Source: Streptacidiphilus rugosus AM-16
GTDB lineage: Bacteria; Actinomycetota; Actinomycetes; Streptomycetales; Streptomycetaceae
DNA: 64,000 bases
Reading direction: 5' to 3'
Assembly (NCBI RefSeq): GCF_000744655.1
Contig: NZ_JQMJ01000004.1
Location: forward strand, 1,860,001 to 1,924,000
Under the pieces are notes generated by a model that was given only the letters and a program-made list of their open reading frames with translations, searched no databases and had not been told where the DNA came from. The translations under genes and the position numbers were made by a program. Positions 34,915-37,840 of the stretch are shown here, piece by piece (position 1 is the first letter of the stretch; the number at the start of each line of letters is the position of its first letter).

Positions 34915-35781
34915 TCAGGAGCCGCTGGGGCTCGGAGCCGGGTTGTTGTGGGCGGTCGGCGAGGCCAGCGCCGCGGCGCTCGCCGGGGGGATGCTCGCGG
35001 GCTGCTTGCCCTTGTTCGCCGCGTCGACCCACTTGACCAGGTTCGCGGGCGAGATCTGCTCGTTGTTGTAGGTCGGGTAGGCGGGGGTGCCGTTCAGCAG
35101 CACGGTCGGGGTCGAGGTGAAGCCGGACTTGTCGAAGTCCGCCTGCACGGCCGTGACCCAGTTGCCGAACCTGTTGTCGTTGACGCAGGACTCGAAGTCC
35201 GGCGTGTCCAGGCCCGGCACCTGCTTGGCGAGCCCGATCAGCACGCTCTTGTCGGCCCAGGCGTCGTCCGTCTCCTGCGGCTGGTTGGCGTACAGGACGT
35301 CGTGGTAGTTGTGGAAGTGACCGGCGTTCTGCGCGCAGGCGAGGGCGTTGGCCCCGTTCTTCGATCCCTTGCCGCCGTCGTGTCGGTCGATGAACGAGAC
35401 GATGTGGTACTGGACCTGGATCTTGCCCTGGGACAGCAGCTGGTTGACGGTGCTCTTCATCGTGGTCTCGAAGCTCTCACAGGCCGGGCAGCGCGGGTCC
35501 TCGTAGACCGTCAGCGTGGAGGGGGCGTTGCTCGCGCCGACCGGGATCAGCAGGTTGTTGGTGCCGACCGCGCCCGCAGGGGCGTCCTTGGCCGCGTCGT
35601 AACTGCTGGAGCGGTTGTTCTGGATCAGGATGCCGACCACCACGGCCACCACGATCACGGCCAGCGCCACACCGATGGCGCTCAGTTGGCGCACCTTACG
35701 CGCCTTGGCGTCCTGTTTCGCCCGCTCCTCCAGCATCCTGGCGCGGGCGCTGCGCTTGCCGTCGTCGTTCTTCTGGCTCAT
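34915..35781 (-). CDS. Membrane-anchored DsbA-like thiol-disulfide protein
   Basis: This 288-residue protein has a charged cytoplasmic head, one transmembrane helix (residues 34-54) and an extracytoplasmic thioredoxin/DsbA domain with CPAC (Cys98, Cys101) and the cis-Pro region SGFTSTPTVLLNG. The tail is Pro/Ala/Ser-rich. It should catalyse disulfide formation or reduction in exported proteins. The ATG at 35781 is the obvious start; longer upstream codons are non-coding. A MauE-like gene lies 53 bp upstream on the same strand and may supply its electrons. Confidence 0.9.
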   Translation of the reverse strand: MSQKNDDGKRSARARMLEERAKQDAKARKVRQLSAIGVALAVIVVAVVVGILIQNNRSSSYDAAKDAPAGAVGTNNLLIPVGASNAPSTLTVYEDPRCPACESFETTMKSTVNQLLSQGKIQVQYHIVSFIDRHDGGKGSKNGANALACAQNAGHFHNYHDVLYANQPQETDDAWADKSVLIGLAKQVPGLDTPDFESCVNDNRFGNWVTAVQADFDKSGFTSTPTVLLNGTPAYPTYNNEQISPANLVKWVDAANKGKQPASIPPASAAALASPTAHNNPAPSPSGS

Positions 35782-35834
35782 GGAATCTTCTGTTCTGTTC
35801 GGAACGTGGGGAGAGGTGGGAGAGCGGCGCGCGG

Positions 35835-36287
35835 TCACCCGGCCAGCCAGCCGTCCAGCGACAGGCGGCTCTTGGGCCGCCAGACCAACCAGCCCGCCAG
35901 CACCAGGAATCCGCAGTCGCGCAGGATCTCCTGCCAGTACGCGGTCTGCGAGGCGGCCACCGCGCCGCCGCCGCCGAAGCAACCGCAGTCGATCGAGATG
36001 CCACGGGCCCAGACCGAGGCGATGGCCCCGATGTAGACGACCAGCAGCACGCAGGAGACGATCGCCGCGATCCGGGTGCCGAGCCCGACGAGCAGCAGCA
36101 GCGCGAGCGCGATCTCCAGGAAGGGCATGCCGTAGCCGATCGGCTTGACCAGCGCCTCCGGCAGGATCCGGTAGACGCGGACCGCCTGCGCCGCCGCCTC
36201 GGGATCGGACACCTTGGCCAGCCCCGCCCAGGCCCAGACCACCGACAGGGCCAGTCGCACGACCGTGCTGATCCAGGCGGTGATCAC
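35835..36287 (-). CDS. MauE/DoxX-like membrane redox protein
   Basis: This 150-residue protein has four predicted helices and a conserved CxC in DCGCFGGGG (Cys101 and Cys103), the hallmark of the MauE family, which passes redox equivalents across the membrane to thioredoxin-like partners such as MauD. The GTG at 36287 has GGGAGA about ten bases upstream. The neighbouring DsbA-like gene is the natural partner, a role like that of DsbB or VKOR; this pairing is inference. Confidence 0.82.
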   Translation of the reverse strand: MITAWISTVVRLALSVVWAWAGLAKVSDPEAAAQAVRVYRILPEALVKPIGYGMPFLEIALALLLLVGLGTRIAAIVSCVLLVVYIGAIASVWARGISIDCGCFGGGGAVAASQTAYWQEILRDCGFLVLAGWLVWRPKSRLSLDGWLAG

Positions 36288-36365
36288 TGCTGTTCGTCTC
36301 CCTGCGGCGGCCGGTCCGTCATCAATACGGACTAATCCTGCCTTATGCTGCTGAACTGGCATGCG

Positions 36366-36935
36366 TCATTCTCCGCGATTCGCCGCATTCTGCACGTAGC
36401 TCCGGAGTGCGCTGGGGCTCTCCAGAAGCTCGGGCCGGGTGCCGAGGTCCACCTCGCTGCCGTTCAGCAGCATCGAGGGCGTGCCGTGATGCACCCCCGC
36501 GGCGTCGTGGAGGTGCTGCGCCGCGTCGACCCAGGGCTTCCAGTACAGCGCGCGCCTCGGCGTCGGATCCCGGCCCGCGCAGCGCCGGTCCACGGGAGAC
36601 GAGGTCGGGCAGTCCCCGCGGGGTGAACCCGTCGAGGTCCTCGGGCCCTGGTCGGCCGGCAACAGGGCGTGGAGCAGCGGAAATCCGCCGTGGGCGACAG
36701 CGGCGCGGGCGGAGTTCGCGGCCAAGAGCGCGCCGGGTCCGGGCAGATGTTCGTCGAGTGAGGACGCGATGACGTAGTGGACGCGGACGGTGTGGCGCCC
36801 CGACCACCTCGCGCAGGGCGGGCCCCATGGCGGGCCTCGGAACGGGCCGTCGCCCGCGTGCGGGCCGCCGCGCGCCGCCCGCGTACGCCACCTGCCGGAT
36901 CACGAACGAGGCGAAGCCACGCGCTCACCGGAACG
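36366..36935 (-). pseudogene. Frameshifted DsbA-like gene
   Basis: Fragments in all three minus-strand frames line up as one DsbA-like protein: a piece with GPALREVVGA near 36800-36828, then VRVHYVIASSLDEHLPGPG and GGFPLLHALLPADQ, then EDLDGFTPRGLPDLVSR in a second frame, and finally YWKPWVDAAQHLHDAAGVHHGTPSMLLNGSEVDLG back in the earlier frame. At least three frame changes are needed, and the place expected for CxxC reads without cysteines. It is therefore a decayed paralogue beside the intact DsbA-like gene. Indel errors in the assembly are the alternative for some of the frameshifts but not for the missing cysteines. Confidence 0.65.
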
Positions 36936-36981
36936 AGGAGGCCGCCCGAGTACTCCGTGCGGGCGGACCGTACGCACGACG

Positions 36982-37019
36982 ACGGGAGGGGCGCGCACCA
37001 GCGTGCGCACCCCTCCCGT
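36982..37019 (-). terminator. Terminator hairpin after trpA
   Basis: Seventeen-base arms (36982-36998 and 37003-37019) pair with one mismatch around CAGC, 12 bp beyond the trpA stop. It closes the trpC-trpM-trpB-trpA block. Confidence 0.8.
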
Positions 37020-37030
37020 GACGTGTCCGG

Positions 37031-37840
37031 CTAGCGCTTGCGCACGCCCTGCGCGAGCTCGGCTGCCAGTTCGCGGACCGACGCCAAGGCGGCCTCCTCC
37101 GACAGCGCGTCAAGGATGCGCTGCACGAACGCCGATCCGACGATCACACCGTCCGCGAACGCCGCCACCTCGGCCGCCTGCTCGGCGTTGGAGACGCCCA
37201 GTCCGACGCAGACCGGGAGGTCGGTGGTGGCCCGGGTCCGGGCGACCAGATCCTCGGCCATCGAGCCCACCTGAGCGCGGGTCCCGGTGACCCCCATGAC
37301 AGCCGCCGCGTAGACGAAGCCGGTGCCCTTCGCGGTGATCTGGGCCAGCCGGTGGTCCTGGCTGGACGGCGCGACGACGAAGACCGTCGCCAGCCCGTGG
37401 GCCGCGGCCGCCTCCAGCCACTCGGCCGACTCCTCGACCGGAAGGTCCGGCAGGATGCAGCCGGCCCCGCCGGCCGCCGCGAGGTCGGCGGCGAAGCGGG
37501 CCTGGCCGTACCGGTCGACCGGGTTCCAGTAGGTCATGACCAGCACCGGGACGGTCGGGTTGGCGGCCGTCACCTCGCGGACCGTGGCCAGCACGTCCTT
37601 GGTGCGGATACCGGCCCTGAGCGCGATGTCGTCGGCCGTCTGGATCGTCGGGCCGTCGAGGACCGGGTCACTGTGCGGCAGTCCGATCTCGACGATGTCC
37701 GCGCCGCCGTCGATCACGGCCTGCACGGCCTGCGCGGCGCCCTCGATGGAGGGGAAGCCGGCCGGCAGGTAGCTGATCAGGGCGGCCCGGTTCTCGGCCT
37801 TGGCGGCGGCGAGGGTCTCGGTCAGCAAGGCGTTCGTCAC
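37031..37840 (-). CDS. trpA: Tryptophan synthase alpha subunit
   Basis: This 269-residue TIM barrel cleaves indole-3-glycerol phosphate to indole, which passes to TrpB. The active-site segments are [13 protein letters not shown] (substrate loop), [21 protein letters not shown] with the catalytic Glu and Asp, and GVTGTRAQV plus [10 protein letters not shown] for phosphate binding. The GTG overlaps the trpB stop (GTGA), so translation is coupled. A hairpin terminator follows. Confidence 0.97.

Follow-up and report, generated by a model that had tools for sequence, protein, structure and literature searches.

A probable dsbA2 pseudogene between trpA and mauE in Streptacidiphilus rugosus AM-16

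In the window, as we call the whole stretch of 64,000 nucleotides of Streptacidiphilus rugosus AM-16 analysed here, pieces of a DsbA-like protein are spread over three reading frames between trpA and an intact mauE. This raises the question of what gene stood there and whether a working disulfide system was damaged when it broke, since MauE has a role in disulfide formation. Our reading is that a pseudogene of dsbA2 occupies the stretch, the intact gene coding for a membrane-anchored DsbA-fold protein of a trpA-dsbA2-mauE-dsbA1 locus, and we give this explanation as a whole a probability of about 0.9. At the same place, 11 of 13 relatives have an open gene and the window copy is disrupted.

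Table 1. Features of the trpA-dsbA1 region (positions in the window)
Feature	Position	Strand	Basis
trpA, intact	37031..37840	(-)	matched over most of its length in relatives
Hairpin directly after trpA, probable trp operon terminator	36982..37019	(-)	folding energy
Conserved upstream element (CTCGTTCCGGTGA ... TGATCCGGCAGGTGGCG), preceding dsbA2 in relatives	36886..36937	(-)	fixed pattern
dsbA2 remnant (3' portion of a decayed Thioredoxin_4/DsbA-like gene, three frames)	36366..36845	(-)	orthologue matches; DNA-level alignment with four intact copies and two further decayed ones
Retained tail of the remnant with probable mauE ribosome-binding site	36363..36389	(-)	comparison with intact consensus
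mauE, intact MauE/DoxX-like membrane protein	35835..36362	(-)	PF07291, E 1.3e-30
dsbA1, intact membrane-anchored Thioredoxin_4 protein, CPAC	34915 to ~35781, start inferred	(-)	PF13462, E 9.1e-27 (match made with frame 34915-35982); CPAC seen in the tree alignment

The remnant and its neighbours

The locus order on the minus strand is trpA, hairpin, dsbA2 remnant, mauE and dsbA1 (Table 1). The remnant reads SEARHG in the first frame, MGPALREVV and EDLDGFTP..DAEAR in the second, and VRVHYVIASSLDEHLPGPGALLAANSARAA, ALYWKPWVDAAQ and GVHHGTPSMLLNG in the third, its stop codon lying three bases ahead of the mauE start. A Pfam scan of these three frames gave no match at E 0.1, so the homology was shown via relatives instead: the third frame alone matches syntenic orthologues in 11 of the 13 other Streptacidiphilus genomes (E 4.0e-52 to 2.1e-32), and its likeness to DsbA is therefore not due to chance. 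The three-frame fragments and the syntenic orthologues bear out the preliminary description, which had claimed that a second DsbA-like gene had decayed beside an intact mauE-dsbA pair. The frame changes, read from the assembly, fall at ~36.83-36.80, 36.64 and 36.55 kb, near the indels claimed there at about 36795, 36640 and 36560, and inspection of the translations likewise found no CxxC in any of the three frames. From its proposed extent of 36366-36935, the DsbA homology occupies only ~36845-36366, and 36846-36935 is upstream DNA with the conserved element.

The gap between trpA and mauE measures 668 bases in the window vs 1058, 1076, 1157 and 1144 in four intact relatives; it is 497 bases in G008 and 466 in G006. 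The remaining homology begins directly after the active-site position of the open copies, and the upstream element is only ~40 bases away from that point. These two observations indicate that the 5' part of dsbA2 (membrane anchor, linker and CxxT site) was deleted in the window lineage, with the frame changes in what follows. Some 400-500 bases are missing, including the whole N-terminal part. No second close match to dsbA2 was found in the window's genome (9.0 Mb in 4 contigs, rated 100% complete, with the window at 1,860,001-1,924,000 of the 7.1-Mb contig C4), the other three matches having 30-35% identity.

Around the remnant, the region of the hairpin (36970-37030) has a folding energy of -46.6 kcal/mol (z -5.9), with 0 of 200 shuffles as low. 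In MauE, Cys126 and Cys128 (DCGCFG) are both conserved throughout the alignment (19 of 19 sequences). The window has a complete mauE-dsbA1 pair, and G006, G008 and seven g14 genomes likewise have such a pair, with no open dsbA2 in any of them. An apparent insertion in the trpA of G008 was discarded, being a run of N in that assembly.

Two side observations concern other DsbA-like genes. Among the 28 family genomes with no mauE match (loci L095-L122), 26 have a CPxC DsbA-domain frame downstream of trpA on the same strand, and no such frame matched at L107 and L120. A VKOR gene, present in 14 of 14 genomes of the genus, adjoins another DsbA-like gene elsewhere in the window's genome (G000:C3:731159-732144).

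Open orthologues and their single cysteine

The comparison at the same locus in related genomes gave a syntenic open orthologue of the thioredoxin domain in 11 of the 13 other genomes of the genus, while G006 and G008 have remnants of their own, decayed differently from that of the window. The remnant of G008 was found as a partial match to the third frame (E 6.1e-17) and that of G006 by closer search (E 8.4e-08). PF13462 is matched by all 11 open orthologues (best E 1.2e-11). G007 is counted as open for the thioredoxin domain, its anchor being in another frame of an assembly 76% complete, with trpA only partly matched. One TGA is present in each of G003, G010 and G013, which we read as lying upstream of the start, and from the chosen starts the frames run open for 310, 276 and 271 aa. 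The active site is FED[YF]RC-x-x-T in every open copy, with CSTT in four, CSST in three, CSET in two, and CDST and CSDT in one each. All 11 copies keep, without variation, the Cys, the Thr and the GTPSM loop, in which the proline is presumably cis.

The orthologue of g11, which is another genus in the family, reads CPDC in two of three genomes (G023 and G036) and DPGS in G044, where this motif replaces CxxC (L015) yet the frame is open up to 363 aa. A profile of the orthologues compared with 297 family genomes scored 249-490 bits in the 11 genus and three g11 genomes; none of the other family genomes exceeded 183 bits, and the window's remnant reached 179. A contig scan for dsbA2 relatives returned 8 loci, 7 of them from Streptacidiphilus and one from Microlunatus at 30% identity. 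Separately, seven g14 genomes (L024, L025, L027-L031) have between trpA and mauE an ORF of 53-88 aa that matches only the N-terminal anchor of DsbA2 (for example L028, 1004-1252 in mauE strand orientation; a GTG start was chosen). The frames match at E 8.5e-9 to 2.9e-5, values that come from a small set of frames, and pN/pS is 0.44-0.88 over 21 pairs. These ORFs could be either a stub of dsbA2 or an ancestral mini-protein.

A tree of 68 DsbA-like proteins (191 columns) places the dsbA2 proteins of the genus and of g11 on one branch with an ultrafast bootstrap of 100, the grouping of the G031 copy with dsbA2 resting on midpoint rooting. On this tree, dsbA2 is a paralogue on a branch separate from dsbA1, and CPxC is present in all 53 proteins not labelled dsbA2. 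The change from CxxC to CxxT occurred, by parsimony, once, in the ancestor of the genus and before the decay seen in the window. Since all 11 open orthologues of the genus have CxxT, loss of the second cysteine most likely preceded the breakdown of the gene, and the absence of CxxC is most likely an older conserved change and not a product of decay.

The core of the S. jiangxiensis DsbA2 is predicted to have a DsbA fold. AlphaFold gave pLDDT 96.6 and pTM 0.92 with an alignment of 65 rows, which is without three dsbA1 proteins (G001, G005, G012) missed by the motif pattern, and the model places Cys36 directly ahead of a long helix. A first model, with 11 full-length rows, had pLDDT 57.6, and its Foldseek matches were already DsbA-like. 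Among the 554 chains compared (VIA), the nearest solved structure is BdbD (Z 21.8, rmsd 2.3 over 175 residues), with M. tuberculosis DsbA at Z 20.8-21.2, C. diphtheriae MdbA at 20.9 and TsdA at 18.6. The CxxC required of a functional DsbA dithiol oxidase is CxxT in the 11 genus orthologues, and in the window the site is deleted.

Selection, repeated loss and retained ends

Omega was estimated by Nei-Gojobori in 10 pairs for the dsbA2 core, and for dsbA1, mauE and trpA in identical pairs. The values range over 0.160-0.480 in dsbA2, 0.154-0.508 in dsbA1, 0.123-0.339 in mauE and 0.075-0.295 in trpA, and they show that the open one-cysteine copies are under purifying selection. In four pairs from the second clade of the genus, dsbA2 exceeds dsbA1 (0.443/0.210, 0.307/0.297, 0.449/0.303 and 0.480/0.265), which indicates weaker constraint in that clade. 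The CxxT protein might itself contribute little by now and be drifting, with the decayed copies only further advanced on that path. We consider this rather unlikely, since Cys, Thr and the GTPSM loop are kept without exception and none of the 10 pairs has an omega as high as 0.5, although the reading gains from values of 0.44-0.48 in three pairs, from decayed copies in 3 of 14 genomes of the genus, and from the DPGS of G044 and the anchor-like stub that is all g14 has.

The preliminary description can be read to mean that decay removed the CxxC, so that a working CxxC DsbA would have disappeared recently and the disulfide system would now be crippled. In favour of this, the remnant is indeed that of a DsbA-like gene, and the g11 orthologue still has CPDC in two of its three genomes; however, CxxT in all the open copies of the genus speaks against a recent loss of the cysteine pair. 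The statement that one component of the system was lost is overstated, given that mauE-dsbA1 is complete in the window, that G006, G008 and the seven g14 genomes have the pair with no open dsbA2, and that VKOR with another DsbA-like gene is encoded elsewhere in the genome. We hold this version to be very unlikely.

The dsbA2 gene has decayed more than once. A species tree from trpA, trpB, trpC, mauE and dsbA1 (19 genomes, 1359 columns) pairs the window with G004 (87) and G006 with G008 (80), the latter two beside G011 (100); the support values are those of the Newick string, since rerooting displaced some labels. In both G004 and G011 dsbA2 is open. G006 and G008 have in common a 5' deletion and an internal deletion, which the window lacks. 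This placement, with the open copies of G004 and G011 and the distinct deletions, implies at least two independent losses, the G006/G008 lineage having lost dsbA2 separately from that of the window. The window lineage has 37 substitutions in 257 sites at codon positions 1+2 and 20 in 82 at position 3, a pattern only partly relaxed. The bias between codon positions is gone in G008 (21/219 and 6/69) and G006 (49/201 and 8/66); the intact controls gave 22/280 and 27/109 in G004, 8/266 and 9/91 in G011, and 4/262 and 7/89 in G009.

A short working protein could still be encoded by the remnant, for example by the frame ending at 36366, which is open for 177 codons and has a third-position GC of up to 0.87-0.97 in parts. 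Its middle (~36640-36560), however, is non-homologous, because the homologous codons are in another frame there, and the frame has no Pfam match, no anchor and no cysteine site, which makes this highly improbable. Sequencing or assembly errors could also make an intact gene look frameshifted, single-base shifts being a frequent kind of error. This is hardly credible here, since some 400-500 bases are absent, including the entire N-terminal part, the neighbouring genes are open, two relatives have remnants of their own with a common internal deletion, and the genome is rated complete in 4 contigs.

Both ends of the dsbA2 pseudogene are better preserved. In the tail, GGAG at 36371-36374 is eight bases ahead of the mauE ATG. 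The tail agrees with the intact consensus at 26 of 27 bases in the window and in G008 and at 27 of 27 in G006, and the window's other ten remnant blocks match at 58-88%. Among open copies, G011 has 27/27 and G004, in which mauE starts further downstream, 21/27. At the other end, the fixed pattern of the upstream element was found in the window and in 8 of the 13 other genomes of the genus (L013, L014, L016-L019, L021, L023), with no match in G002, G006, G008, G009 and G011. The element, which contains a partially palindromic stretch (CTCGTTCAGGTGA-like) and TGATCCGGCAGGTG, may be a promoter or operator with a possible regulator site; a thiol-stress sigma promoter in it was considered by eye only and set aside. 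Similar CGGGTGA words are found between trpA and mauE in the g14 loci. With the probable promoter element at one end and the probable ribosome-binding site of mauE at the other, the remnant may persist as a leader of mauE-dsbA1. This idea draws on the 3' tail, which all three decayed copies retain, and on the 5' element in the window only.

Possible role of DsbA2 and comparison with known systems

The pseudogene is ordinary in itself, and the interesting part is the conserved CxxT DsbA paralogue, of putative role, beside MauE. A CxxT protein would be unable by itself to store or hand on a disulfide, but its single Cys could attack mixed disulfides of clients or of mycothiol. The open DsbA2 may thus be a one-cysteine helper alongside the MauE-DsbA1 oxidation pair, acting as a holdase or isomerase or stripping mycothiol from proteins, and this helper would be gone in the window. 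Such a task could be dispensable, which would account for the repeated loss. As a tentative proposal, possible but not the probable outcome, Streptacidiphilus would have evolved a dedicated CxxT DsbA by MauE-DsbA1 for extramembrane covalent holdase/isomerase work or demycothiolation, and repeated loss would mark the species that do not need it. To our knowledge, no DsbA is known with a one-cysteine holdase/isomerase or mycothiol-removal job.

The related genera offer a natural series at one locus, from CxxC through CxxT and no cysteine to an anchor stub and a wreck. It lets one ask what a DsbA does with the attacking cysteine alone, and also whether MauE has a single DsbA partner or two. Literature searches linking MauE, DsbA and Streptomyces found nothing; those on MauE with disulfide, or with thioredoxin or actinobacteria, had by title no paper on the dsbA2 locus among the matches listed, and those on Streptacidiphilus and thioredoxin had none on dsbA2 by title.

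The closest known proteins differ from DsbA2 at the active site. MdbA, TsdA and the DsbA of M. tuberculosis share the fold (VIA Z 18.5-21.2), the Thioredoxin_4 domain (11 of 11 open copies) and a hydrophobic N-terminal stretch, whereas their catalytic CxxC is CxxT in the open DsbA2 and the window copy has no site. The activity of TsdA needs its CxxC, according to PMC9974433, and the DsbA proteins characterised up to 2016 all contain CxxC, as summarised in PMC4960241. DsbA1 is encoded at the same locus, with the same layout of anchor and Thioredoxin_4, but its CPAC is kept in the genus, and it has ~30% identity to DsbA2 and a separate branch. A PDI with CxxC uses its first Cys for attack and its second to release the client, and CxxS forms hold clients for longer, a classic test having left isomerisation only (PMC12384036). 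Monothiol glutaredoxins have the second Cys replaced by Ser and less often by Thr, as PMC2757866 describes. These glutaredoxins, ArsC and ERp44/AGR2 keep the first Cys and replace the second, as DsbA2 does; they belong, however, to different subfamilies, and none is a DsbA encoded beside MauE.
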